Origin: Ignisphaera sp.
Lineage (GTDB): Archaea; Thermoproteota; Thermoprotei_A; Sulfolobales; Ignisphaeraceae
NCBI GenBank assembly: GCA_025058535.1
Contig: JANXEL010000030.1
Span: 1-39,717 of the forward strand
Direction: 5' to 3'
Length of the DNA: 39,717 nucleotides
The position numbers were made by a program, and so were the translations under genes. This document shows, one piece after another, positions 3,508 to 20,392 of this stretch; positions within the stretch are counted from its first letter, which is position 1; each line of letters starts with the position of its first letter. The notes below the pieces were generated by a model, which saw only the letters and a program-made list of their open reading frames with translations, ran no database searches and had not been told where the DNA came from.

Positions 3508-5082
3508 ATGGATAGGTATATTATGGTTATAGATCAGGGAACAACGGGAACACGGGTTGCCATAGTTTCATCTAATGGAGTTCCCGCTAGAGGTGGATGG
3601 TGCTACCGTGAACACATGCAGATATACCCCAGACCTGGCTGGGTTGAACATGATCCCCTAGAAATCTGGGAGAAGACGAAACTTTGCATGGAGGAATCTA
3701 TTAGAAAATCTCGCATTAATCCAAGGGATATTGCAGCTATTGGTGTAACTAATCAGAGGGAAACAATAGTAGTGTGGAATCTTAGAACAGGGAATCCTTT
3801 ATACAATGCAATTGTCTGGCAAGACAGAAGGACAGCTAAATACGTGGATCTATTGAAGGAGATGCACCTAGACGTGATAAAGGGTAAAACGGGCTTAATA
3901 CCTGACAGCTACTTTTCAAGTGTGAAGATATGGTGGCTTATGGAGAATATCGAGAAGGTTAGAGAATATGTTAAAAGAGGTGAAGCTTTATTTGGAACGA
4001 TAGATTCATGGATTATATGGAATTTGACTAGGGGTTCGAGAGACATACTAACCAATGAGAAGATGGGGGCTCACGTCACAGATTACTCAAATGCGTCGAG
4101 AACAATGCTCTTCAACATCCATGAGCTTAAATGGGATGACGAGCTCCTAGAAATGCATGGAAGAATACCCAAGGAATCCCTTCCACTGCCACGACCATCA
4201 AGTGACAGAGAATTCTATGGATATGTAGGAGCAGAGGTGAACAACATTCTGGGCGGTGCTGATATACCAGTAGCAGCTTCCATAGGAGATCAGCAAGCTG
4301 CTCTATTTGGTCAGATAGGATTCGATGTAGGGGATGTCAAGTGTACATATGGAACCGGCAACTTTGTTCTTATTAATACAGGAGCTACGGCTGTTAAATC
4401 GCGCTACGGTCTACTCACAACAATCTACTACTCACTTGAGCCTGGTAGAGCTCTATATGCCCTTGAGGGAAGCATATTCATAACGGGTGCTGCCATCCAG
4501 TGGCTGAGGGACGGTTTAAAGATTATAGAGGTTTCAGCTGAAATAAATCCACTAGCGGAATCAGTATCCGATACTGGTGGCGTATATTTTGTACCTGCAT
4601 TTGTTGGTCTTGGAGCTCCGTACTGGGACCAGTACGCCCGTGGGCTCATTATAGGAATTACTAGAGGTACTGAGAGGAGGCATTTAGCGAGAGCGACACT
4701 AGAGGCCATAGCGTATCTAACGAGAGATGTTGTGGAGGCCATGAAGGCTGACATAGGGAAAGATATAGGGGTATTAAAAGCAGATGGCGGTGCCTCAAAA
4801 AGTGACATCCTTCTGCAGTTCCAGGCCGACATTCTTGGGGTAAAGGTTGTGAGACCAGCTGTACCTGAAACAACATCACTTGGAGCGGCATATCTAGCTG
4901 GAATAGCGGTGGGTATATGGAAGAGTTTGGATGATGTTAGAGGTGTATGGAGGATAGATAGAGAATTTGTGCCCAGGATAGACTCGTTAGCTAGAGAGAG
5001 ACTTTATAGTGGGTGGAGGGCTGCTGTAAAGAGGGCTCTAGGATGGGCGAAGGAGATCCCATGGGCGTATGGCTATGAGTAG
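3508..5082 (+). CDS. glpK: Glycerol kinase
   Basis: Phosphorylates glycerol to sn-glycerol-3-phosphate with ATP, the first step of glycerol catabolism. The 524-residue protein is typical FGGY-kinase size. Motifs include DQGTTGTR at 9-16, GWVEHDP at 44-50, TNQRET at 81-86 (the Arg-Glu pair that binds glycerol), WQDRRT at 104-109, PDSYFS with Tyr135, [10 protein letters not shown] with Asp261 as the likely catalytic base, GTGNF at 282-286, GLGAPYWD, and DGGAS in the ATPase domain. It leads a four-gene plus-strand operon in which all the other genes serve oxidation of its product. No GGTGA precedes the ATG, which fits the first gene of a transcript with a short leader. Confidence 0.96.
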
Positions 5083-5106
5083 CTACAGTAGATGGTGAAC
5101 ACTAGG

Positions 5107-6606
5107 ATGAAGAAGTACAGAGTCGTTATAGTTGGTGCTGGAATAATTGGTGTGTCTATAGCTAGAGTGCTAAGTATGTACGAAAACTTTGACGTTTCTA
5201 TAGCAGAGATGGAGCCTGATGTCGGTTGGGGAATTAGCAAGGCAAATACATCAATCATACATCCATGTCATGAAGAGGATCCGGAGAGATATCCACTAAG
5301 AGCCAGACTGTGTAGAGAGGGGAACTCTATATGGATGGAGTGGGTTAAGGAACTAGATATACTTGCTAGGTGGCCTGGGGAGCTCATGGTTTTCCATAGC
5401 AGTGAAGAGGAGCGAGAAGCCAGGAAGTACATATCATTTGCTATCAAGAACAACGTTCCTGGTGTACAAGTTATATACAGGGATGAGCTGCAAAGCTACG
5501 AACCTACAATTAATCCCGATGCAGAGGGGGCTCTCTACGCCCCAACAGCCGGCATGATATCACCGTTCGAAGCGGTTATAGCCATTGCTGAGAATGCTAT
5601 TGAAAATGGAGTTAAGCTTATTGTTGATACTAGAGTATCAAACGTCAAGATCACAAATCATAGTGTTGTAGGTGTGGATACTAACAGAGGTTCTATAGAT
5701 GCTGACATAATTATAAATGCTGCTGGTCTATATGCAGACCACGTATCGCATATGGCTGGAGTAGCACGCAGCTTTTACATAAAGCCTAGGAGGGGCGAGT
5801 ACATAGTATTTGACGAAGGTGTTGATATAAAGCCTAAAAAAATTCTGCACACAACCCCGACCCCTACAACTAAAGGTGTGTACGCTATTACAACTGTTCA
5901 TGGTAATCTCATGATAGGACCTACGGCCGAGGACCTACCCGTGGATGCTAGAGAGAGTAGAACTACTACGGAAAACGGTCTTAGCTATCTGCTCAAGGAG
6001 GGTGGAAGGATATTGAATAGAGTTCCGCCACCATCGAAAATTATAAGAAGATTTGCAGGCTTGAGACCTGAGCCTCCCCAAGGTGAGTGGCTTATAGAGG
6101 TGTACACAGATCCTTTTGGTTTTGTAAATGTAGCTGGTATACGATCTCCAGGTTTAACGGCAGCTCCAGCGATAGCCAACTATGTCCTAAAGCTAATGAT
6201 AAAAAAGTATGACATAACTCTTGTTAAGAAAGCTAGCTGGGTTCGCCATAGAAAGAGTATAAATAGAATTAGAGAACTCAGTTTAGAGAGGCTGGATGAA
6301 CTGATAAGAAAGAATCCAAGCTATGGAAAGATAATCTGTCACTGTAGAACAGTTTCAGAGGCTGAGATCCTAGAAGCAATTGATAGAATTATAAAGATAG
6401 GTGTCAAGCCTACTGTGGACGGTGTCAAGTTCAGAACTACTGCAGGTTTTGGAAAGTGTCAGGGGTCATTTTGTAGATGGAGGATAGCCCTACTAATATC
6501 AAGAAAGCTGGATATACCATTACACAGCGTTGTGATTAAGAGGAGCCCTTACGGTTTAGGAGATGTAAAGCTTCTACTAAGAAGTAGAATGGTGAACAAA
6601 ACGTGA
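5107..6606 (+). CDS. glpA: FAD-dependent glycerol-3-phosphate dehydrogenase, GlpA-like, with C-terminal [2Fe-2S] domain
   Basis: Expected to oxidise glycerol-3-phosphate to dihydroxyacetone phosphate. The 499-residue product starts with a DAO-type Rossmann motif, VVIVGAGIIG, and has a DAO core to about residue 370. The C-terminal BFD-like (bacterioferritin-associated ferredoxin) domain has cysteines at 411 and 413 (CHC) and at 451 and 456 (CQGSFC), which should bind a [2Fe-2S] cluster as in anaerobic GlpA. The start at 5107 has GGTGA at 5094-5098 with an 8-base spacer; an ATG at 5092 lies against the motif and is less likely. It follows glpK by 24 bases and overlaps the next gene by 4, so the three are co-transcribed and probably co-translated. 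The symbol is by homology of domain layout. Confidence 0.9.
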   Translation: MKKYRVVIVGAGIIGVSIARVLSMYENFDVSIAEMEPDVGWGISKANTSIIHPCHEEDPERYPLRARLCREGNSIWMEWVKELDILARWPGELMVFHSSEEEREARKYISFAIKNNVPGVQVIYRDELQSYEPTINPDAEGALYAPTAGMISPFEAVIAIAENAIENGVKLIVDTRVSNVKITNHSVVGVDTNRGSIDADIIINAAGLYADHVSHMAGVARSFYIKPRRGEYIVFDEGVDIKPKKILHTTPTPTTKGVYAITTVHGNLMIGPTAEDLPVDARESRTTTENGLSYLLKEGGRILNRVPPPSKIIRRFAGLRPEPPQGEWLIEVYTDPFGFVNVAGIRSPGLTAAPAIANYVLKLMIKKYDITLVKKASWVRHRKSINRIRELSLERLDELIRKNPSYGKIICHCRTVSEAEILEAIDRIIKIGVKPTVDGVKFRTTAGFGKCQGSFCRWRIALLISRKLDIPLHSVVIKRSPYGLGDVKLLLRSRMVNKT

Positions 6607-7853
6607 TTGAGAGAAAGGTTAGTGTTATGGTTGTGGGTGCGGGTCCTGCAGGAATAGCAGCTGCTACTAAAGCGGCGCAGCTGGGCCTTGAAACAGTGCT
6701 TGTCGAGAATAGAGATATTTTAGGTGGAATACCCCTTCAGTGTGTGCATCCGGGATTTGGACTTCATTACTTCAAAGAGGATATGACCGGATGTGAGTTT
6801 ATCCACAGATTAATAGACAGAATGCACAGGGCTGGAGTTGAGACCATAGTAAATGCCTATGTGCATTCAATAGAGTTTTACTCTCAATTAGAAAAGAATG
6901 TAAATGTAGTAACGCAAAGTGGTATACTTAGAATAAATACAAAGACAGTGATATACACGGCTGGTGCTAGGGAGAGACATCTATTCGAACTCAATGTACA
7001 CGGTGACCGCATCGATGGTATATACACTGCAGGTGAAGCACAAACCATTATGGATCTCTACGGCGTTCTACCCGGCAAAGATGTAGTTATAATTGGTTCT
7101 GGTGATGTTGGTCTTATAATGGCAAGAAGGTTTGCACTAGAGGGTGCTAACGTCAAGGCTGTTATAGAGATTATGCCGTATCCCGGAGGCCTCCTGAGAA
7201 ACATTGTGCAATGCTTAAAAGACTTTAACATTCCCCTCTACCTAGGTCATGCTGTAACCGAGATCATTGGTAGTAAAAGGGTTGAGGCTGTAAAGGTGGC
7301 TAAGGTGGATGAAGATCAAAGACCAATCAGATCTACTGAATTCGAAATAACGTGCGATACCGTAGTGATTGCCGCCGGGTTAGTGCCTAATATAGATCTT
7401 CTGGAGAAGATAGGCGTCGCAGTAGACCCTAGAACAAAGGGTCCCATAGTGAATGAGTATCTTGAGACGAGCATACCAGGGATATTTGCTGCAGGGAATG
7501 CTCTTGTGGTAAATGACCTTGTAGACTATGCTGCTGAACAGGGGGAGATAGCCGCAGATGGTGCCAAAATCTACATCGAGAATTGTGGTATTCCCACAAG
7601 GAACTGGACGAGGATAAAACCTGGTAGAAACCTAAGGTTTGTCGTACCGCATTACGTTAGCAGAGAAAGGGATGTCGTTTTGTATGCAAGGGTTCAGAAG
7701 CCTGAAAGAAATGTCTACCTATCCATTGCCAACTTCAAAGCAAAAATGCTGAGTCTAAGGCCCGCAGAAATGATTAGAATAAAAATTCCATTCAACCGAA
7801 TTTTAGAAGATAATCATAGGGTTATTTCAGTTGAGGTTGTGCCTTATGAATAG
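6603..7853 (+). CDS. FAD/NAD(P)-binding oxidoreductase, second subunit of the glycerol-3-phosphate dehydrogenase complex
   Basis: A 416-residue pyridine-nucleotide-disulfide-type flavoprotein. It has a first dinucleotide fold with VVGAGPAGIAAA near residue 9, a second with IIGSGDVG near 163, and a GIFAAGNA motif that closes the FAD site. No CxxC redox disulfide is visible. The family occurs next to GlpA and DUF1667 proteins in anaerobes, where it is thought to move electrons from the GlpA flavin and iron-sulfur site to NAD or another carrier. A complex of this make-up has, as I recall, been described in Thermococcus kodakarensis. Its start overlaps the glpA stop (ATGA-type, 4 bases) and its end overlaps the DUF1667 gene by 8. 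The electron acceptor is not visible from sequence. Confidence 0.88.
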   Translation: MIERKVSVMVVGAGPAGIAAATKAAQLGLETVLVENRDILGGIPLQCVHPGFGLHYFKEDMTGCEFIHRLIDRMHRAGVETIVNAYVHSIEFYSQLEKNVNVVTQSGILRINTKTVIYTAGARERHLFELNVHGDRIDGIYTAGEAQTIMDLYGVLPGKDVVIIGSGDVGLIMARRFALEGANVKAVIEIMPYPGGLLRNIVQCLKDFNIPLYLGHAVTEIIGSKRVEAVKVAKVDEDQRPIRSTEFEITCDTVVIAAGLVPNIDLLEKIGVAVDPRTKGPIVNEYLETSIPGIFAAGNALVVNDLVDYAAEQGEIAADGAKIYIENCGIPTRNWTRIKPGRNLRFVVPHYVSRERDVVLYARVQKPERNVYLSIANFKAKMLSLRPAEMIRIKIPFNRILEDNHRVISVEVVPYE

Positions 7854-8238
7854 CAGTGAAATTATCAGTGGTGCTAAGGAAGAGCTCATCTGCATCATCT
7901 GTCCAATAGGATGCTCACTAGAGGTGTATAGAGATTCAGATGATATCCATGTTAAGGGAGCATTGTGTCCAAAGGGTATCGAATATGCAAAACAGGAGTT
8001 TCTAGATCCTAGGAGAGTTGTCATGACAGTTGTGAGAGTCAAAAATGGAGACCTACCAGTGGTGTCTGTAAAAACTAGCGTCCCTGTACTAAAGAAGTGT
8101 ATCAATGATATAATGATGATAACAGCTTCGATTGAAGTTGTAGCACCTGTAGAAATTGGGCAGGTTATTGCCAGAGATATCTGTGGAGCTAATATAGTTG
8201 CTACAAGAGAAGTTAAGAAAATAAATAACTGTGATTGA
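7846..8238 (+). CDS. DUF1667 iron-sulfur protein, third component of the glycerol-3-phosphate dehydrogenase complex
   Basis: A 130-residue protein with CIICPIGC (Cys16, Cys19, Cys23) and LCPKG (Cys41), a four-cysteine set suited to one [4Fe-4S] cluster. It also has the YAKQE, VKTSVPV and PVEIGQ patterns typical of DUF1667. It is likely the small electron-transfer subunit, analogous in role to GlpC but unrelated in layout. I chose the ATG at 7846, with GAGGT about 8 bases upstream, over the TTG at 7831. The gene overlaps the preceding one by 8 bases and closes the operon; 147 bases follow before the next gene. Family assignment is strong; the electron-transfer role is inferred from context. 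Confidence 0.87.
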   Translation: MNSSEIISGAKEELICIICPIGCSLEVYRDSDDIHVKGALCPKGIEYAKQEFLDPRRVVMTVVRVKNGDLPVVSVKTSVPVLKKCINDIMMITASIEVVAPVEIGQVIARDICGANIVATREVKKINNCD

Positions 8239-8385: not shown

Positions 8386-9420
8386 GTGAATAGAGGTATA
8401 AGATTTTCCACTATTGCTATAGATGGTCTAGACTCCGTTTTTTACTGTTGGTGTAGAGTAAAGAGTTCAGTAGAAGGTATAGAAGAGTTCTTCAAACCCT
8501 GCAGACCACAGGACTTCTGGCTTTTTACTAACGAGGAAAAGAAATATACCATGTTTATATCAAGGTACATCAAGCCTGCTGGATACATCACCGTATCCTT
8601 GAGATCCAGGGAGCTGTTCAGATGGGGTGTTTTTGAAATTAGGAGCAAGCTTCCAAAAATTGCTGGTGGTCCCATGCTATGGTTTGGCTTTGAGCTTGAT
8701 GATCTTTTTGGTGGTGGCGTTGTCCACTTTATGTGGAATTGTGATAGAGGAGTTCTAGCTGCTTTTGCCGGCGGCTTTAGTTCGAGGGTAGAGATGGATT
8801 TGACTAGATATCTACCTAGTGATGCATCTATAGATCCTCATCTCTATAGGATTATTCATAGAAGGGGTTTAGCACTATGGTACATAGACGACAGGCTTAG
8901 AGCCATGGCAATACTGGGCTGCGGAACATATCGGGACTCATCAATACTGTATGACAAAAAACCCTACACCATAGGTTTTACAAGAGATGCACCATCAGCA
9001 GCCCTGCCAATACTTCTGGATATAGATGGGGGTGATACCGATAAAGCATTTGAGTGGCCCGATCTCCACCCATGGGATCTGAGAGTTTCAGAAGGAGATT
9101 CTAATACATCAATATACCTGGATCTATTCATAGAGGATAGCAATAATACCCTGAGAAATTACAGTACAGAAGGTGAAATAGTCTCTGCACCCTTTCCTGG
9201 AACGTTAGATTGGAAGGAAATTCTATTTGCAGTGGACGGTAGAGGTTTACTTACAATTGAGAGTTTTACAAATGGTCAATGGTTTGAATATAGAACAGTT
9301 GAAATCAGTGAAAAGAGACTATACAGCATTCCTATACAGGATAAAAGCTTTATGAATAGAATAGTGTTCAAATCAAATATTCCAGCTAGAATAATAGAAG
9401 CCCAAGCGGTGTTGCGGTGA
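8386..9420 (+). CDS. Concanavalin A-like beta-sandwich protein, GH16-like fold, function unknown
   Basis: 344 residues, no signal peptide or membrane segment. Residues 67-90 (GYITVSLRS...FRWGVFEIRSKLP) followed by GGPMLWFGFEL match the strand pattern of GH16 glucanases and ConA-like lectins, where the sheet reads 'YGxFExRxKxP...GxWPAFW'. The ExDxxE catalytic motif expected about 20-30 residues later is not seen; the matching stretch reads GGVVHFMWNCD. It may bind carbohydrate without cleaving it, or use other residues. A second, less recognisable domain covers about 230-344. The start is GTG with GAGGTGGAGAGG upstream. It faces the GH172 gene tail to tail and probably belongs with the sugar genes around it. 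Fold is moderately sure, function is not. Confidence 0.65.
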   Translation: MNRGIRFSTIAIDGLDSVFYCWCRVKSSVEGIEEFFKPCRPQDFWLFTNEEKKYTMFISRYIKPAGYITVSLRSRELFRWGVFEIRSKLPKIAGGPMLWFGFELDDLFGGGVVHFMWNCDRGVLAAFAGGFSSRVEMDLTRYLPSDASIDPHLYRIIHRRGLALWYIDDRLRAMAILGCGTYRDSSILYDKKPYTIGFTRDAPSAALPILLDIDGGDTDKAFEWPDLHPWDLRVSEGDSNTSIYLDLFIEDSNNTLRNYSTEGEIVSAPFPGTLDWKEILFAVDGRGLLTIESFTNGQWFEYRTVEISEKRLYSIPIQDKSFMNRIVFKSNIPARIIEAQAVLR

Positions 9421-9481
9421 CAGTAATAATGCGAACTAGTCTTTTAAGAACCTAGGAAAAACCATTATAGATAGATAGTTG

Positions 9482-9501
9482 CACTCAATTTTTGTTGAGT
9501 G
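9482..9501. terminator. Hairpin with T-rich loop between convergent genes
   Basis: CACTCAA (9482-9488) and TTGAGTG (9495-9501) form a perfect 7-base-pair stem around a TTTTTG loop. It lies between the stops of two converging genes, where a transcription end is expected. Archaeal termination depends mainly on U-tracts, so the T5 run in the loop could serve the plus-strand transcript. Confidence 0.35.
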
Positions 9502-9520
9502 ATGAAATCAGGCAAAAATA

Positions 9521-10504
9521 TTATAGGTTCTGAGGGTCTACATTTGTAAATTCGTAGTGCGGCTCCAACTGATACCAGTAAGCAACACTACTATAATCTG
9601 CTGAGACCTCATCCCATTCTCCATGATGTATTCTCACACTGAGCTCCCTTTCAAATGGTATGGGATCTGCAATGTGAAATCTGTAGGCAACTATTCTGAA
9701 GTTCTCTGAATCCTTTATTAGAAGTCCATGAAAAGGAGCATTGAACGTGCCCTTTATAAAGTACCATCCACTTAAGAAGTAGTCCTCAGTACCTGTTGAT
9801 CCATATGCAAGCTCACCATCCGCTACTATTTCCATGTTTCCTTCTAGGAAACCGAGGCCTCCAAACACTCTATGTTTTTCATGCCCTTCTATAGCAAGTA
9901 GTGTACCTACATAGTGGCCTCTACCCTTAGCTACAAGTATTGTGTATGGCTCATTCAACCTTACACGCTCCTCTCTGCGCCAGATTGCATGAAATCTTGC
10001 CATACCCTCTATATCTTCTCCGGATACGTAGCCAATCATATAGTACAGAAGATCAACATCCGTATCGCTCGTATTGATTAGTTTGATTAATGCTCTATTG
10101 AATGGCATTGGGAAGTAAGTATAGTAGCCACCACTTGTGCAGCCTATCGGAAGAGACCAGAAGTGTATATACCTACCTAGACCTATTGGCACATTCTGGC
10201 CGAGATCTATGTATTCTCCCATGCCGCCTGCAGAACCAAAGAAGTCTCCCACAGGTGCTTCAACACTGGGAATTGTTTCACCATCCCAATACACTCTAAG
10301 TATAGTTCTTCTCAAAATATTCTTATCGCGTGAACCCATTGTCATCCAAAGACTTACAATTATTCCAGGACCTTCAATTTCAGCTAGTGTATGCTCACCT
10401 TTTGCCGGAACAGTGTAGAAATCCTGGTGCTTTTCACCAGCTTTGTGAGTGCTAGATATGTATCTCATTCTACCTCTTTTCAATTTGGGAAGATCTAAAA
10501 ACAT
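9521..10504 (-). CDS. GH172 (DUF2961) family glycoside hydrolase-like protein
   Basis: 327 residues covering the DUF2961 domain, now classed as glycoside hydrolase family 172. Known members act on furanosides (alpha-D-fructofuranoside/difructose anhydride and D-arabinofuranoside linkages) and have a double jelly-roll fold. Visible motifs are GPGIIVSLW near 45, VGDFFG at 85-90, YYTYFPMPF near 127, FLEGNMEIVADGE at 219-231 and GSTGTEDYF at 235-243. Glu221 or Glu225 with Glu240 are the obvious candidates for the catalytic pair, by analogy with characterised members. No signal peptide is seen, so the substrate would be an imported or cellular furanoside. It reads convergently with the beta-sandwich gene and follows the PHP gene on the same strand by 64 bases. 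The family is confident, the substrate unknown. Confidence 0.85.
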   Translation of the reverse strand: MFLDLPKLKRGRMRYISSTHKAGEKHQDFYTVPAKGEHTLAEIEGPGIIVSLWMTMGSRDKNILRRTILRVYWDGETIPSVEAPVGDFFGSAGGMGEYIDLGQNVPIGLGRYIHFWSLPIGCTSGGYYTYFPMPFNRALIKLINTSDTDVDLLYYMIGYVSGEDIEGMARFHAIWRREERVRLNEPYTILVAKGRGHYVGTLLAIEGHEKHRVFGGLGFLEGNMEIVADGELAYGSTGTEDYFLSGWYFIKGTFNAPFHGLLIKDSENFRIVAYRFHIADPIPFERELSVRIHHGEWDEVSADYSSVAYWYQLEPHYEFTNVDPQNL

Positions 10505-10568
10505 GTAACTTAACCGTGAAAACTGTATGTGGTGAGAAGTAAATATAAGGATGGTGGTTCGTAAAGGT

Positions 10569-12050
10569 CTACGGCATGTAGATTGGGTTGCTCAAAGCCA
10601 AGAGCTCTACAACCGCACTATGCTCTAGTGAGTGTGGGTCTGTATACCGACCTATTTCCACCCTAACAAATTTGGTATCATCATCCACGGTCAACCTATC
10701 CGTAAATTTAAATGATCTTGTCCTAATACTGTATAACTTGGCAATCTCTTTAGCGGTGATGATCCTAAGCATAACCTCACCCATATACCTATCTATGATA
10801 TCTTTATCTACCTCTACATCTACCAAAACCTTAAGCTCCTTATTCACATTATCTATTCTATCTCCAATATTGCATAATTTATTGCCGCTGTATATCGCCA
10901 TATCTATTCTCCAAGTATTTGGAGTTTTGGATAGAAATACCCTTCCTCTTCTAATACTATCTAGTACATCCTCTACCGTCGGTCTATCTACAAATACCCA
11001 CGTAGTAGGAGTAGCTAGCTCAACGTCGCTTCCACCATGATAATCGCTCCCACCAACGATGGGCATAACTAGTCCCTCTGTGAGTAGCTTATGCCACCAA
11101 CTAACTGCGTGTGCATTCCACGTTACGGGAGTGGGGCCATTCCATACCTCAATTAAATCGAAACCCCTTAGCTCTTTGTACTTGAAGTCGCATCCAATAC
11201 AATTGGCATCAAAATTGAATGGATGATTTAGTGAGGCTAGAAGACCTTCCCTATGGATTTCATCAATAAGATTTCTAAAATCATCTAAGTTCCTCCTTCT
11301 AAAGTCAAACCATTTTGCGCCCCATGTATTTATATGCCCATAGTATGTCGTGATTTCGATTCCCGGTATTACCAGTATATCAGGACACTCAGCTAATTTA
11401 ATTTCAGATATTTGGCTTAGAGTATTGTGATCTGTTATAGCTATATAATCGAGATCCAGCTTTATAGCCTTAGAAATTAAGCTGCATACATCATCCCTAC
11501 CATCACTATGAACAGTATGCACGTGCAGATCGCCCTTAATCCACCCACTACTCAATCCACGTTCTTTCTTTTCCATGCAGCTACATTTCTTTTCACTCAA
11601 ATTAGTGATACGATGTTTAGACATCTTAATAACGATCCTGTACTTACATCCACACTCTACAATTCTAGCAAGACCAAGCACTACGGACCAGGTACCTGGA
11701 TACACCTCTCCAGCTACATAACCTGGTATTGCATGCAAATTATCTATATAGAGTTTTGTTTTTGATGACCCGCTCCAACCTCTAAACGCATTTTTTGAAT
11801 CAATCAAACCAATATCTATGATGCAGCCCCGCTCTCGATCAAAATCATACTCAATTTCTATAGAGGTGTATCCATTAGGTAGAGTAAATTGTATATACCT
11901 GTAATCAGAAATCTCTTTATCTCTGGGGTATAGAATACCGTTGAACTCTTTTATGATAGATTCTCCCAAGTGCGCCACCAGATACACGAGATGTTTATCG
12001 GATGTTGCACTGCACTGAGATAAAAACTTTCCTGCGTTCACGGCTTTCAA
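10569..12050 (-). CDS. PHP-domain phosphoesterase of the CehA/McbA type
   Basis: A 493-residue, three-part protein. Residues about 40-145 form a beta domain with the FRGWSGSSK and IPGYVAGEVYPGTW patterns that commonly precede CehA-type PHP domains. The PHP metal-binding core covers about 170-380: DLHVHT at 174-179, ITDHN at 205-209, GIEITTYYGH at 230-239, NHPF at 275-278 and GGSDYHG at 333-339. These supply the histidines and aspartates of a trinuclear metal site. A C-terminal beta region follows. Such enzymes hydrolyse phosphomono- or phosphodiesters; its place between a GH172 and sugar-metabolism genes suggests a sugar- or glycerol-phosphate ester. A short insert near 154-163 has two cysteines (CSC). 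The start is TTG at 12050, GTG at 12041 being the alternative; neither has a good ribosome-binding site. Confidence 0.85.
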   Translation of the reverse strand: MKAVNAGKFLSQCSATSDKHLVYLVAHLGESIIKEFNGILYPRDKEISDYRYIQFTLPNGYTSIEIEYDFDRERGCIIDIGLIDSKNAFRGWSGSSKTKLYIDNLHAIPGYVAGEVYPGTWSVVLGLARIVECGCKYRIVIKMSKHRITNLSEKKCSCMEKKERGLSSGWIKGDLHVHTVHSDGRDDVCSLISKAIKLDLDYIAITDHNTLSQISEIKLAECPDILVIPGIEITTYYGHINTWGAKWFDFRRRNLDDFRNLIDEIHREGLLASLNHPFNFDANCIGCDFKYKELRGFDLIEVWNGPTPVTWNAHAVSWWHKLLTEGLVMPIVGGSDYHGGSDVELATPTTWVFVDRPTVEDVLDSIRRGRVFLSKTPNTWRIDMAIYSGNKLCNIGDRIDNVNKELKVLVDVEVDKDIIDRYMGEVMLRIITAKEIAKLYSIRTRSFKFTDRLTVDDDTKFVRVEIGRYTDPHSLEHSAVVELLALSNPIYMP

Positions 12051-12106
12051 GTTCTTCTACTAAATTCACTCTATTTCAGAACCCGCAAGGCCACAGTGAT
12101 TATACT

Positions 12107-12118
12107 TTAAATATTTCT
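12107..12118 (+). promoter_or_regulatory. TATA box for the sugar isomerase gene
   Basis: ACTTTAAATATT ahead of the 12153 gene is a clear archaeal TATA element. Initiation 26-28 bases from its centre falls near 12140, leaving a leader of about a dozen bases that contains the GGTG motif at 12143-12146. The divergent PHP gene starts 57 bases the other way. Confidence 0.5.
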
Positions 12119-12152
12119 TCAGCTGATAGTCGATACCTGTGGGGTGTTGGAA

Positions 12153-12950
12153 GTGGTACTTCGGATAGCACTACAGCTGTACTCTCTAAGGCATGAACTC
12201 CAGGAGTCTTTCGAACGCGTACTTGAAGATGTATCGAGTATAGGTTTTGAGGGTGTTGAGTTTGCTGGTCTCTATGGTAGAGATCCTACTGGGCTGAGAG
12301 AGCTTCTGTACAAAATTGGTTTAGAGGTTGCAGGTGCCCATACTCCAGTTAATACTCTTATTGGACCAGAATTAGAAAAAACTGTAAGGCTGCATATAGC
12401 ACTTGGAAATAGGTACCTTATCATACCAGGTCTTCCTGAGGAGTTGAGAAAGACGAGGAACGACTGGATAAAATTTTCAGAGATATTAGATAGTATTTCT
12501 GGAAGACTCGTACGGCACGGAATGAGGGTGGGGTACCATAATCACAGAATAGAATTTACTGCAATTGAGGGAGAGAAACCTTGGGATATAGTGTTTAGCC
12601 GGACATCTAGAGATGTCATTATGCAGCTTGATGTGGGACACGCGCTTGCTGCACAAATCAATGATAACGAAATTATAGAGATTATTAGGAAGTACAGAGG
12701 AAGGGCTGTGACAGTACATGTTAAGGAGTATTCAAAGAGAAAAGCAGTAGAATTGAAAAGTGTTGAGAAGGGTTATGAGGTAGTTATCGGAGAGGGGGAA
12801 ACTAGGTGGGCTGATATACTGAAGGCATTAAGGGACTACGGTGGAACTGAGTGGATTATAATTGAACAAGAAGTCTATCCGTACAAGCCACCTATAGAGT
12901 CTATAAAGAGATCCTTTGTATTTATAAGTGAATTGCTCAAAACACTGTAA
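12153..12950 (+). CDS. Sugar phosphate isomerase/epimerase, IolE/xylose-isomerase-like TIM barrel
   Basis: A 265-residue AP-endonuclease-2-type TIM barrel. N-terminal IALQLYSLR, then GFEGVEFAG, AHTPV, GYHNHRIEF, QLDVGHA, VHVKEY and a C-terminal IIIEQE give the usual strand ends and metal ligands (Asp of LDVGHA, His of VHVKEY, Glu of IEQE). Members isomerise or epimerise keto-sugars and inositol derivatives, or dehydrate 2-keto-myo-inositol. I prefer GTG 12153, which has GGTG at 12143-12146 with a 6-base spacer and places the family's first strand four residues from the start; an upstream GTG at 12144 is possible. It is likely one step of the route formed with the aldolase and dehydrogenase genes downstream. 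The exact substrate cannot be told. Confidence 0.85.
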   Translation: MVLRIALQLYSLRHELQESFERVLEDVSSIGFEGVEFAGLYGRDPTGLRELLYKIGLEVAGAHTPVNTLIGPELEKTVRLHIALGNRYLIIPGLPEELRKTRNDWIKFSEILDSISGRLVRHGMRVGYHNHRIEFTAIEGEKPWDIVFSRTSRDVIMQLDVGHALAAQINDNEIIEIIRKYRGRAVTVHVKEYSKRKAVELKSVEKGYEVVIGEGETRWADILKALRDYGGTEWIIIEQEVYPYKPPIESIKRSFVFISELLKTL

Positions 12951-13368
12951 ATTAAGAGCAAGACTCACTCCAATAAATGAGCCATCACACTGCTGCTCAG
13001 AGATTAAGAGAGGGTTATTGCAAACCCTTGGGAAATTTATAGCCTTGGAGGCAAAACGCGCACGGTATCTACCAAAACCATCTACATTGCCATCTAAACC
13101 ATGGGCTACGAATAAAAGGTTTAGCAACTATGAGAGCGCTATGCTTAAATCCTCATGAAAGATTTTCCAGAAACAATTAATCAACTCAATGTCAAGCAAT
13201 TGCATCTTCCTACAGAGAAATTTGCGCTAAGACAGCTTCCTCCATATTTAATGGAGTGGTGTCACAGTCTCGCTTTTTAACAAGCAAGCCTCTTACTGTT
13301 AAGATTCAACGGCTCAGTTAATAATTAATAAAAAAATTTTAATTTTGCCTGGAATAAACTTTCTGGCG
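12951..13368. other. Gene-poor interval with hairpins and a TATA-like tract
   Basis: No gene is supported here. Two perfect short stems are visible: AGGGTT/AACCCT near 13010-13028 and CTCCAT/ATGGAG around an ATTTA loop near 13241-13258. AT-rich sequence at about 13321-13344 can act as promoter for the aldolase gene. Open frames on both strands at about 12930-13150 match no family I recognise and overlap the end of the isomerase gene, so I do not call them. Confidence 0.5.
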
Positions 13369-14286
13369 ATGCCTTATATGAGGTTTAAAGTTGAAGGTAT
13401 ACTCACAGCACTGCTAACACCATTAACAAGAGATGGTGATCTATGTGTAGAGTGCCTTGAATCATTGATAAAGTTTCAGATAGGTAAGGGCATTAGTGCG
13501 CTATTTCTAACAGGTACATATGGGGAGGGTGTTATATTATCCAGTACTGTCAAGCAGAAGATCTACAAGTACGCTCTCGAATTTTCATCCAGCAAACTCA
13601 CTCTCCTCCCACATGTTGGTGGAGCCGATCTAGAATCTATAACCTCTGTAGCTAAATTTGCTAGCGATCTTGGCTACAGTGTGGTTAGCGTCGTTGGACC
13701 TATATACCATAAACCTACTAAGAGAGGTTTGGCAGAATTCTTTAGCCACATATCATCAAAGGCCGACGTAGATATTGTTATTTACAATAATAGAGGTAGG
13801 CAGGGCTATAACATATCGCCAGACGATTTTGATTATATATCTAGGGAGGTGCCAGCCGTTGTAGGTATAAAGGATACCAGCTATGATATTGAACAGATGA
13901 TTGAATATGTTAAAAGGTTTGGAGCAAAATACTTCATAGGAGGGGCTGGCGATAACCTTCTCTATGTTACTTTCGCAATAGGTATGCCTGCACATATATG
14001 TGGAATGTCAAATGCGTTTCCAGAAATTGCTATAGAGTTGTATAGGGCTGTGAAAAATGGAGATCATAATGCTGCTCTAGATCTTCAGTACAAGATTACT
14101 AGGATTAGAAAGGTGTTAGCTAAATTTAATCTGGAGACTCAGGAGCTACTAAGGGAGGTGCTGAAATTTAGAGGTCTGAACCCAGGATACCCACCTATCC
14201 AAATGCGTGAAGGTTTGGAGGCTAGGCAAACTGAAGAACTTAGAAGATCTCTCGAACAAATTGTCGGGGAGTACTTGGTAAGGTGA
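13369..14286 (+). CDS. Dihydrodipicolinate synthase/N-acetylneuraminate lyase family aldolase or dehydratase
   Basis: A class I aldolase-fold TIM barrel of about 305 residues. The Schiff-base lysine is in GIKDTS at residue 168, and the proton-relay tyrosine is in YNNRGR at 139; the GTTGE phosphate/carboxylate motif appears as GTYGEG. The usual YNxP after the tyrosine is replaced by YNNRG, somewhat closer to keto-deoxy-sugar-acid dehydratases than to true DapA. No lysine-pathway genes lie nearby, so a role with a 2-keto-3-deoxy sugar acid is more likely than lysine synthesis. An AT-rich promoter centred near 13340 would start transcripts close to 13367, suggesting a leaderless ATG at 13369; ATG 13378 is also possible. 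It is followed after 6 bases by the hydroxyacid dehydrogenase gene. Confidence 0.83.
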   Translation: MPYMRFKVEGILTALLTPLTRDGDLCVECLESLIKFQIGKGISALFLTGTYGEGVILSSTVKQKIYKYALEFSSSKLTLLPHVGGADLESITSVAKFASDLGYSVVSVVGPIYHKPTKRGLAEFFSHISSKADVDIVIYNNRGRQGYNISPDDFDYISREVPAVVGIKDTSYDIEQMIEYVKRFGAKYFIGGAGDNLLYVTFAIGMPAHICGMSNAFPEIAIELYRAVKNGDHNAALDLQYKITRIRKVLAKFNLETQELLREVLKFRGLNPGYPPIQMREGLEARQTEELRRSLEQIVGEYLVR

Positions 14287-14292
14287 CCATTG

Positions 14293-15300
14293 GTGGTTAT
14301 AAAAATAGCTATAGTCAACTCTAAATCGTTTGGAGCTTACACCAATGCCGTAGACAGGCTGAGGAGAGTGGGCGAGATTATAAGAATTGATGTCCCTAGG
14401 GATATATCTGGCACAGAGCTAGCTGAAAAACTTAAAGGTGTACATTTCATTGTGGCCAGCGTCACTCCATTCTATACAAGAGAATTTTTTGAAAATAACA
14501 AGGATGTTGTAATGATCGTAAGACATGGTATAGGCTATGACAATATAGATGTTAAGGCTGCTGAAGAACACGGAGTTATAGTTGCAAGAGTTCCCGGGTG
14601 GAGGGAAAGAGAAGCCGTGGCCGAACTTACAATAGCACTAATGCTTGCTGCTATTAGAAGGGTTGTAGAGTCCTCCAACAGCGTAAGAGCTGGTAAATGG
14701 CATGAAAGGGCAAAGTACGTAGGCAAAGAGCTGCCGAGTCTCACCATAGGTGTTGTGGGGTTCGGCAATATCGGATCTAGAGTCGCTGCAATTCTTATAA
14801 ACGGTTTTAATTCTAAGGTTATCGTGTATGATCCGTATGTACCTAGAGCGTATGTAGAGAGGCTTGGATGCGTATATGCAGAGAGCGTCGATGAGCTGCT
14901 AGCTCAGAGCGACGTAATAACACTTCATGCAATTTTGACAGATGAAACTAGACACATGATTAATAGAGAGGCATTTGAGAAGATGAAAGATGGTGTTATA
15001 ATAGTTAATACAGCTCGAGGAGAACTTATAGATACTCAAGCCCTTATCGAGTACATAGAGAAGGGAAAGATAGCAGCTGCTGCTCTCGATGTTATTGAAG
15101 GTGAGCCTATAGATGAAAAACACCCCCTCCTGAAATACCAAAATGTCATTGTAACCCCTCATATAGGAGCCTATACATACGAATCCCTTGTAGGGATGGA
15201 TGAAGCCGTTGTGGAGGCCATCGATAATTACCTGAATAATAAACCCATTGATGGTATCGTCATAATGCCCAGAGAGAGGAGGGCACTAAGAGTTAATTGA
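14293..15300 (+). CDS. D-isomer-specific 2-hydroxyacid dehydrogenase
   Basis: NAD(P)-dependent reduction of a 2-keto acid to a D-2-hydroxy acid, or the reverse. The 335-residue product shows RHGIGYDNID, the cofactor motif GVVGFGNIG with an acidic residue in VYDPY (NAD preference), NTARGELID carrying the substrate-binding arginine, DVIEGEP with the catalytic glutamate, and PHIGAYTYES with the catalytic histidine. Length and layout resemble phosphoglycerate or glyoxylate/hydroxypyruvate dehydrogenases without the C-terminal ACT domain. The start is GTG 14293, with GGTGA at 14282-14286 and a 6-base spacer; that motif overlaps the stop of the aldolase gene. Translational coupling suggests it works on the aldolase product. 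Its 3' end overlaps the convergent aminotransferase gene by 15 bases. Confidence 0.9.
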   Translation: MVIKIAIVNSKSFGAYTNAVDRLRRVGEIIRIDVPRDISGTELAEKLKGVHFIVASVTPFYTREFFENNKDVVMIVRHGIGYDNIDVKAAEEHGVIVARVPGWREREAVAELTIALMLAAIRRVVESSNSVRAGKWHERAKYVGKELPSLTIGVVGFGNIGSRVAAILINGFNSKVIVYDPYVPRAYVERLGCVYAESVDELLAQSDVITLHAILTDETRHMINREAFEKMKDGVIIVNTARGELIDTQALIEYIEKGKIAAAALDVIEGEPIDEKHPLLKYQNVIVTPHIGAYTYESLVGMDEAVVEAIDNYLNNKPIDGIVIMPRERRALRVN

Positions 15301-16542
15301 GGCTTGCAGTTTTTCCTCCTTTCCTTCAGTCAATTCCACTATAAAACTTTTAAGCCTTTCAATACCTTCAGCAATGGCGCCATCATTTAAGGCAAAGCTT
15401 ATCCTAATAAACTCTGCACCAGCTCTCTCGGGAAACACTGTACCTGGTAGTACGATTACATGCTTTCTCTCAACAAGTTGCTCTACAAATTGCTCTGAGG
15501 ACATACCTATCGACCTTAGTATGCTGCCCATGTAGGGAAAGAGATAGAAGGTCCCCTTGCTAGGCCATACTTCAACTCCCTTAATCTCTCTCAACTTCTC
15601 TATCGCTAGATTCCTTCTCTTTTCAAAGAGTCTTATCATATCTTCAATTGGCTTCCACGATCCCTTTAAAGCTACTATACCCGCCTTCTGCACAAATGAT
15701 GTAGCACATGACCATATGTTTACTGCTAGCCTGGTTATTTTGGATGCTACTTCGCCTCTAGCTACAAGGTAGCCAAGCCTCCAACCGGTCATTGAGAATG
15801 TTTTTGAGAATCCGTTTACATAAAGCAGGTGGTCTCTCCAATCTGCAAAACTTATGAAGGACCTTAGCCTACTTTCATCGTAGAGAAAGTTATCGTAGAT
15901 TTCGTCAGCGAGTATGAGGAGTTTGTTTTCGACGGCAATTCTATAAACCTCATCAATTTGCTTAGAATTGAATAGAGCACCCGTAGGATTGTGAGGATTA
16001 TTTATAACGATCATCTTTGTTCTATTCGTTACAGCCCTCTCTATACCATCGAGATCTAGCTCAAAACCTCTATCCTCACCCAACCACTTGAGTGGAACGT
16101 ATACAGGCTTAGCCCCAAGGAATCTAACTATCTCTGGATATGCTGGAAATGATGGTTCTGGGACAATCACCTCATCACCAGGCTCTATATAGGAGGCAAT
16201 AGCTAAGAAGATGGCCGGTTTAGCCCCGGGAGTCACTATAAGCTCGTCAGCCTTGACGTCCGATCCGTATCGATCATTTAGATATTCTGCTATAGCCGCC
16301 CTTAGCTCCGGTATTCCCGAGGTCTCAGTGTACCCCGTAAAACCACCGTCGAGAGCCCTCTTAGCCTCATCGACAATATGTTGAAAGGTTGGAACGTCTG
16401 GCTGTCCTACTCCAAAATTTATTACCTTAAAGCCGGCCCTGGCTATCTCCCTAGCTCTAGCTATGTATCGAAACCCTGCTTCACCACGAAGTGAGTTGAT
16501 CACACCTTTAAATAACTTCATTGTTGGCGGTTCTATCTCCAT
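15286..16542 (-). CDS. Class I/II pyridoxal-phosphate aminotransferase, aspartate aminotransferase-like
   Basis: Transfers an amino group between an amino acid and a 2-keto acid using PLP. The 418-residue protein has GVGQPDVPTF, GYTETSG, TPGAKPAI, VINNPHNPTG (Asn that contacts PLP), LADEIYDNFLYD (Asp and Tyr for the cofactor) and NGFSKTFSMTGWRLGY with the Schiff-base lysine, plus FPERAGAEFIRISFAL containing the substrate-carboxylate arginine. This matches the archaeal fold type I aspartate/aromatic group; substrate preference cannot be read from it. ATG 16542 is used; a second in-frame ATG at 16521 is possible. It diverges from proC over 85 bases. It is convergent with the hydroxyacid dehydrogenase and overlaps its last 15 bases. 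Confidence 0.92.
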   Translation of the reverse strand: MEIEPPTMKLFKGVINSLRGEAGFRYIARAREIARAGFKVINFGVGQPDVPTFQHIVDEAKRALDGGFTGYTETSGIPELRAAIAEYLNDRYGSDVKADELIVTPGAKPAIFLAIASYIEPGDEVIVPEPSFPAYPEIVRFLGAKPVYVPLKWLGEDRGFELDLDGIERAVTNRTKMIVINNPHNPTGALFNSKQIDEVYRIAVENKLLILADEIYDNFLYDESRLRSFISFADWRDHLLYVNGFSKTFSMTGWRLGYLVARGEVASKITRLAVNIWSCATSFVQKAGIVALKGSWKPIEDMIRLFEKRRNLAIEKLREIKGVEVWPSKGTFYLFPYMGSILRSIGMSSEQFVEQLVERKHVIVLPGTVFPERAGAEFIRISFALNDGAIAEGIERLKSFIVELTEGKEEKLQASINS

Positions 16543-18991: not shown

Positions 18992-20392
18992 ATGACGGTG
19001 ACAAATAGAGATATTGAAAGCATTGTCAATACCATTACGGAGTGCATTGATGAGAATAAGCTCGAGGAAGCTGTTAAGCTATTTGAGGCTCTGGATCCTC
19101 CGAAGGCAATGGATGTGGTTATTAGGCTTGGTAGCGATGAGAAGAGGAAACTATTCGCTTCTTCAAACCTCAACAATCTTACCGAAGTTCTAGCACGTCT
19201 ACCTGATGAAATTATATATGAAATCTCTTCTGTTAAGGGCGTTGACGATATGGCTAAAATATTATCGAAGTTGCCTATCGATGAGGTTGCTGACGTCCTC
19301 TTTAAGCTTCCGTCAAGAATGAGGTTTGAAATTCTAAGAGTTCTTCCAAGCGATCTCTCATCTGAGGTTGCTAGAGTTATGAAGTTTTCTCCAGAGAGCG
19401 TTGGAGGTGTAATGACCACACAGATACCTGTTTTTGAAGAAGATCTAACTGTAGGTGAAGCTATTGATCTATACATACAGAAAAGTCGGCTTGGCCTGTA
19501 CGATAAGCACAGTTATATATACATTGTTGATAAAAATAGAAAGCTTGTTGGTCACATAGATGTAAGGATCCTCTTGACTAAACCAAGAAATATGAAGCTG
19601 GGTAACTGCATGGAGAAGGTGCCAGTGTTTGTAGATCCTTTTAGCGATCGAGAAGAAGCTGCTAAGGTAGCTGTTGCCTACGATCTTATAGAGGTCCCGG
19701 TCGTAGATTTTGATGGAAGATTTCTAGGTATTGTATCACTGGACGATATACTTGATGTTATGATCAGCGAGTACTCTGAGGACTTACTAAAATACGGTGG
19801 TTTCATAGAGACTATAAGAGGTAGCTATATAGCCACAAGCCCATTCAAGCTCGCTCTAAGAAGGGCCCCTACACTACTATACCTCTATCTCATAAACATT
19901 GTCACCGGTGGAATTACAGCACTATTTGAAAACGTTATAGAGAAAGTAACCCTACTTGCAGCATTCATGCCCATGCTGGCAGACAATTCCGGTAATGTTG
20001 GTTCTCAAGCCTCTGCATTAATTCTGAGAAGTCTTGTTACAGGGGAAATCAAGTTATCTGGAAGCGATTTAATGAAGATATTGTTAAAGGAATTCATAAC
20101 GACGAGCATCATGCTTATTCTACTAGCCCCTTTAGCATTTACTATAGGATTCTCCCTACCCTACATATCAAAGTGGGATCTGGGATACGCCGTGGGTATA
20201 GCATCGATAGTAACGATTGCCCTAATAGCCTCCTGCTATGTATCAGATGTAGTAGGAGCTCTATTGCCAATACTTCTAGCTAAGTTGAAAATAGATCCTG
20301 CAACAGCGTCAGCTCCAGTGGTTACAAGCATAGGTGATATAATTACGGTAACGGTCTACTTCACCATAGCATCTCTAATATTTAGACTATAA
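18992..20392 (+). CDS. mgtE: Magnesium transporter MgtE
   Basis: A Mg2+-gated Mg2+ channel of the cell membrane. The 466-residue protein has the full MgtE layout. A helical N domain of about 1-140 has repeated leucine-rich helices. Tandem CBS domains cover about 145-265, including VGGVMTTQIPVF and VSLDDILDVM, and sense cytoplasmic Mg2+. A C-terminal five-helix pore covers about 285-466. The pore signatures PMLADNSGNVGSQASALILRSL and SIGDIITVTVYF are present; the aspartate in the latter lines the ion path in characterised MgtE. ATG 18992 is used. A TATA-like tract near 18947-18957 lies upstream. The gene stands alone, between the decayed membrane gene and a MobA-like gene. Confidence 0.95.
   Translation: MTVTNRDIESIVNTITECIDENKLEEAVKLFEALDPPKAMDVVIRLGSDEKRKLFASSNLNNLTEVLARLPDEIIYEISSVKGVDDMAKILSKLPIDEVADVLFKLPSRMRFEILRVLPSDLSSEVARVMKFSPESVGGVMTTQIPVFEEDLTVGEAIDLYIQKSRLGLYDKHSYIYIVDKNRKLVGHIDVRILLTKPRNMKLGNCMEKVPVFVDPFSDREEAAKVAVAYDLIEVPVVDFDGRFLGIVSLDDILDVMISEYSEDLLKYGGFIETIRGSYIATSPFKLALRRAPTLLYLYLINIVTGGITALFENVIEKVTLLAAFMPMLADNSGNVGSQASALILRSLVTGEIKLSGSDLMKILLKEFITTSIMLILLAPLAFTIGFSLPYISKWDLGYAVGIASIVTIALIASCYVSDVVGALLPILLAKLKIDPATASAPVVTSIGDIITVTVYFTIASLIFRL

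Follow-up and report, generated by a model that had tools for sequence, protein, structure and literature searches.

A probable patchwork of sugar-catabolism genes from two or three routes around a GH172 glycosidase of Ignisphaera

Arrangement of the six genes

We have analyzed a segment of six genes (positions 8386 to 15300) in an archaeal contig from Ignisphaera sp. The window, that is the whole stretch of DNA under study (39,717 nt, JANXEL010000030.1), is the complete contig G000:C101 of a 1.72-Mb Ignisphaera draft genome. In order, the genes encode a ConA/GH16-fold (ConA-like) protein, a GH172 glycosidase, a CehA/McbA-type PHP metallohydrolase, a xylose-isomerase-like TIM barrel, a DHDPS/NAL-superfamily aldolase and a D-2-hydroxyacid dehydrogenase (HADH). 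The initial annotation described them as one candidate island for catabolism of furanosides and phospho-sugars. We argue that the segment is probably a patchwork of cytoplasmic genes drawn from two or three routes of sugar catabolism, not one pathway. All families are known ones; two sub-units, the pairs DHDPS-HADH and GH172-PHP, are recurrent, and one enzyme, formerly ‘IolE-like’, is re-assigned as AtOGE-like.

An open-reading-frame check found the six frames at approximately the positions first assigned to them. The genes do lie together, as had been claimed, but they are not organized as a single operon: GH172 and PHP are encoded by the minus strand and the remaining four genes by the plus strand, and about four transcription units cover both strands. 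The TIM barrel and DHDPS genes are separated by 394 bp (12950-13345), versus ∼105 bp in the sister species. The gap sequence has no second copy elsewhere in the genome and no Rfam match; thus an origin from a repeat element or an RNA gene was rejected. Promoter and terminator scans, which used a bacterial promoter model, gave sites no more numerous than in shuffled sequence, and repeats across the region were limited to short chance-like pairs.

Outside the window, the complete six-gene order was found in the sister species G133 only (rpoB distance ∼0.08). Unrelated flanks are conserved there too, so this synteny is weak evidence of linkage and was set aside. In other Ignisphaera genomes (e.g. 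G125 and G129) the six families are dispersed across several contigs, with the TIM barrel gene next to GFO/IDH genes and the DHDPS-HADH genes next to FGGY kinases; among relatives beyond the sister species, therefore, only the two pairs are conserved. The four transcription units, the dispersal and the extension of synteny into the flanks could all be accounted for by unrelated genes adjoining by accident on both strands. Set against this are the repeated adjacency within both pairs and the gene distributions (see below), which agree although the carriers are scattered on the tree, and we regard pure chance as quite improbable.

Families and active sites

Pfam and NCBIfam searches bore out four of the earlier family calls (DUF2961/GH172, CehA/McbA-type PHP, DHDPS superfamily and D-2-hydroxyacid dehydrogenase), while the IolE call held at the superfamily level only. 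The GH172 gene (9521..10504, minus strand) matches DUF2961 over the full model length with 239.7 bits versus a cut-off of 27 (E-value 4e-71). The closest solved structure is alphaFFase1 of Bifidobacterium dentium (7v1v), where E270 is the acid/base and E291 the nucleophile; their counterparts in the window protein are E221 and E240, which are invariant among archaeal relatives. The characterized GH172 enzymes considered here (alphaFFase1 and the exo-alpha-D-arabinofuranosidases of Dysgonomonas and others) act on alpha-D-arabinofuranose (alpha-D-Araf) or alpha-D-fructofuranose (alpha-D-Fruf) residues. Since the window protein keeps the catalytic Glu pair and most of the −1 subsite, a furanoside is a reasonable predicted substrate, as had been proposed. 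The family is rare in the class, being present in 4 of 229 genomes, all four from Ignisphaera; a separate collection yielded further archaeal relatives with 65% and 73% identity. On a 4-kb archaeal contig (L007, JAGGUS010000090.1), the companions of one relative are genes for an enolase-superfamily protein, a xylose-isomerase-like protein and a 2-hydroxyacid dehydrogenase.

The TIM barrel gene (12144..12950, plus strand) scored 86 bits against the inosose dehydratase (IolE) model TIGR04379, whose cut-off is 290, and IolE identity was rejected beyond the superfamily level. The closest solved structure, matched over nearly the full length (E-value 4e-20), is PDB 8bvk, which is AtOGE, a 3-keto-O-glycoside beta-eliminase (PMC10628242). 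The metal ligands H132, D163, H189 and E233 and the catalytic H134 of AtOGE correspond to H132, D163, H192, E241 and H134 in the window protein, which also keeps E39, H66, N133; the ligands, the catalytic His and two residues of the alternative metal site are invariant in eight aligned archaeal proteins. In a profile search 8tcd, 8tcs and 8bvk ranked almost equally, with IolE structures far below. Relatives in G125, G126, G129 and G195 adjoin GFO/IDH/MocA oxidoreductase genes, and the window genome has an orthologous pair of such oxidoreductases on contig C70, beside alpha-xylosidase-like and ABC (ATP-binding cassette) transporter genes. No flavin glycoside 3-oxidase was seen among the scanned neighbours, and a literature search found nothing on the 3-keto-glycoside/xylose-isomerase combination. 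From these matches we favour a 3-keto-glycoside beta-eliminase; a hydratase of the same route is an alternative, as 8tcd and 8tcs score as well as 8bvk.

The PHP gene (10569..12050, minus strand) encodes an N-terminal extension of ∼165 residues and a CehA/McbA PHP domain (200.3 bits versus an NCBIfam cut-off of 80) with complete metal-site motifs: DLHVHT, TDHN, GIEIT, NHP and GSDYH. A second paralogue is encoded in the same genome (G000:C1:19910-21343). Hydrolysis of phosphate esters had been attributed to this protein; since the namesakes of the family, CehA and McbA, are carbamate esterases, that chemistry was an assumption and cannot be taken for granted. A PHP gene adjoins GH172 in G126 as well, i.e. 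in a second Ignisphaera lineage.

The aldolase gene (13345..14286, plus strand; superfamily E-value 3e-48) is followed, 3 bp past its stop codon, by the HADH gene (14290..15300, plus strand; E-value 2e-64). The aldolase has the GTYGE motif at position 57, the active-site Y147 and the Schiff-base K176; the dehydrogenase, of the NAD type, has both Pfam domains (NAD-binding and catalytic) with the Arg, Glu and His motifs NTARG, DVIEGEP and TPHIG. Besides the sister species, seven more genomes (G103, G125, G126, G145, G147, G166 and G170) have the two genes side by side. A relative of the G126 FGGY kinases is encoded within ∼3 kb of the pair in six of these seven genomes, and none was matched near the pair in G147; the window genome has an orthologous FGGY kinase pair on contig C61. 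These kinases score best with the gluconokinase and xylulokinase models, and the scores are below the cut-offs. Literature searches produced nothing on the DHDPS-HADH-FGGY combination.

In G126 many of these genes make an island of 20 kb, in the order HADH, DHDPS, two FGGY kinases, an Opp-type ABC transporter, a GH5-like protein, a fucose/arabinose-type (FucI-like) isomerase, an ATPase, PHP and GH172. The best matches of the isomerase are L-fucose and D-arabinose isomerases. In this island (L009, contig C74) the FucI-like gene (∼14122-15633) and the GH172 gene (∼19200-20000) each have a single in-frame TAG, which may reflect either draft-assembly error or decay.

The ConA-like gene (8386..9420, plus strand) has no Pfam or NCBIfam match, and no signal peptide was seen in its product. 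The AlphaFold model, a confident one (mean pLDDT 88.8), has two beta domains, and its Foldseek matches, with modest TM-scores, are to GH16 glucanases and further proteins of the ConA fold, which upholds the initial ‘ConA-like’ call. An FGFE motif (F100-E103) is invariant. A regular-expression scan of eight members found the GH16 catalytic motif E-x-D-x-(x)-E in none; judging by the modelled structure, the protein resembles GH16 in fold only. Its relatives adjoin a GH78 rhamnosidase gene in G125 (GH78-type loci include L052 and L073) and in G203 and G204, genomes of another family where the GH78 neighbour was assigned by 61% identity of the neighbouring protein. The G128 relative (L058), which has an N-terminal hydrophobic stretch, is flanked by genes for a GH51-type protein and for a sugar ABC transporter. 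Two disrupted copies were also seen. In L073 (G204:C2:426000-445999) an ISH3-family transposase splits the gene at 8822-11394, between GH78-like and alpha-xylosidase-like genes; in L076 (G124:C1), from another Ignisphaera genome, a broken remnant with two internal TGA stops is located at 9834-10440.

Gene distribution and the neighbouring glycerol operon

Distribution of the families was compared across 11 Ignisphaera genomes with an rpoB tree, by pairwise Fisher tests uncorrected for multiple comparison and ignoring relatedness. The IolE-like, FucI-like and PHP families have the same five carriers (p = 0.002 per pair). DHDPS-HADH and the FGGY1 kinase also have identical carriers, the same four genomes; for exactly matching pairs overall, p was 0.002-0.003. 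A clade-only cause was rejected, as the five carriers are dispersed over the rpoB tree, where at least four changes are required. Every Ignisphaera genome that has GH172 or its remnant also has FucI.

It is possible, though in our view fairly unlikely, that the greater part of the set forms a dedicated pathway for one sugar, with GH172 freeing D-arabinose from a D-arabinofuranosyl glycan, the isomerase and FGGY kinases processing it, and the aldolase and dehydrogenase acting last. The 20-kb island of G126, which unites most of these genes, the presence of FucI wherever Ignisphaera has GH172 or its remnant, the known substrates of GH172 enzymes and the gene content of the 4-kb contig all fit such a pathway. 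Yet G125 retains FucI, FGGY, DHDPS-HADH and the IolE-like gene with no GH172, genomes of the class that yielded no GH172 also contain the DHDPS-HADH-FGGY combination, and in G126 itself GH172 and FucI both carry the in-frame TAG.

The operon that precedes the ConA-like gene (3508..8238, plus strand) is a neighbour outside the six-gene set. Its four genes encode GlpK (3508-5082), a GlpA-like FAD/BFD oxidase (5092-6606), a GlpB-like pyridine-nucleotide oxidoreductase (6603-7853) and a DUF1667 protein (7831-8238), all on the plus strand. GlpK scores above its cut-off; the GlpA-like protein scores 226.9 bits against the nearest curated model, type 2 glycerol-3-phosphate oxidase (NF033460), whose cut-off is 460. 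The operon does directly precede the six genes, as first described, and because of that score its completeness for glycerol-3-phosphate oxidation is likely rather than certain.

The initial annotation had both clusters fed by one substrate, a glycan or lipid head group made of a furanose and glycerol phosphate. In favour of this proposal are the direct adjacency of the set and the operon in G000 and G133 and one point from the distant G129, where a truncated GH172 remnant (L010, G129:C71, 9857-10268) is located ∼3.5 kb from the operon and, like GH172 in the window, is convergent with it. However, five Ignisphaera genomes share the gene order of the operon, and in three of these the six-gene arrangement is absent. 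The operon is missing from G126, a 99%-complete genome in which all the other families are represented; G131 has the operon and, apart from a weak DHDPS match, none of those families. The operon does not co-occur significantly with the IolE-like family (Fisher p = 0.067). The carbamate-esterase namesakes of the PHP protein, noted above, are not phosphatases, and no glycerophosphodiesterase is among the six genes. The gene distribution thus leaves the link unsupported: independence of the operon is the best explanation, we hold the joint phospho-glycerol-furanoside pathway to be very improbable, and the reading that was built on adjacency is hereby corrected.

Interpretation and comparison with known systems

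A role in carbohydrate catabolism, also proposed initially, is supported because the same families occupy clear sugar loci in relatives. For the patchwork that we favour, the families, active sites, pairings and gene distribution described above are the basis from which we infer substrates, intracellular action and the order of reactions. GH172 would trim alpha-D-furanosyl residues (of D-arabinofuranose or D-fructofuranose type) off imported oligosaccharides, possibly with help from the CehA-type hydrolase, whose task may be to take off a substituent. The TIM barrel would act as a Mn-dependent beta-eliminase of a 3-keto-glycoside route, partnered by the GFO/IDH/MocA oxidoreductases from contig C70. 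The aldolase and dehydrogenase would be constant partners and, together with the C61 FGGY kinases, would serve a route for sugars or sugar acids; the ConA-like protein would be a putative accessory carbohydrate-binding or hydrolase protein.

Several observations weigh against this interpretation. The six-gene synteny is restricted to the sister species, with the flanks kept. Among the Ignisphaera genomes, intact full-length GH172 is found only in G000 and G133; the G126 copy, besides its TAG, is cut by the contig end, and the G129 copy is reduced to residues 1-138 split over two frames. Residue W267 of alphaFFase1 (−1/+1 subsites) is replaced by Gly, so the specificity of the window enzyme may differ. 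The sample of 11 genomes is small, the Fisher tests have the limits already given, and a shared saccharolytic lifestyle could yield the same co-occurrence with no common pathway. Finally, the PHP protein adjacent to GH172 in G126 is of another subfamily (38% identity to the window PHP), whose orthologues in G000 and G133 are located on separate contigs. With two PHP subfamilies beside GH172, the adjacency is not simple inheritance of one gene pair, and a functional tie is mildly favoured.

A broader and, we think, unlikely possibility is a largely uncharacterized archaeal glycan-degradation system in which a GH172 furanosidase and a CehA-type hydrolase would be combined with an oxidative 3-keto-glycoside beta-eliminase route; though scattered in the genomes, the components of the system would be gained and lost together across Ignisphaera. 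Testable predictions are an archaeal GH172 with intact catalytic residues and an archaeal 3-keto-glycoside eliminase partnered by GFO/IDH proteins.

The window GH172 resembles alphaFFase1 in both catalytic Glu, in most −1 subsite residues and, in part, in the calcium site. In the active site, D292, W298, Y187, N272 and D33 align with D241, W247, Y154 (Y187′ equivalent), N223 and D28. It differs in being archaeal, in G218 at the place of W267 and in H26 at the place of the calcium-site N31. The TIM barrel is like AtOGE in its near full-length alignment, the compared metal and catalytic residues and the GFO/IDH/MocA neighbours of its archaeal relatives; unlike AtOGE, it is archaeal, has Gln for E161 and matches 8tcd and 8tcs equally well. 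In a survey of bacterial DUF2961 neighbourhoods (PNAS 2022, PMC8812541) GH172 loci carry ABC transporters, solute-binding proteins and FGGY kinases. The G126 GH172 island, with its ABC transporter and FGGY kinases, is of the same kind; what is additionally present here, in contrast to the bacterial loci, is the CehA-type hydrolase and the DHDPS-HADH pair.

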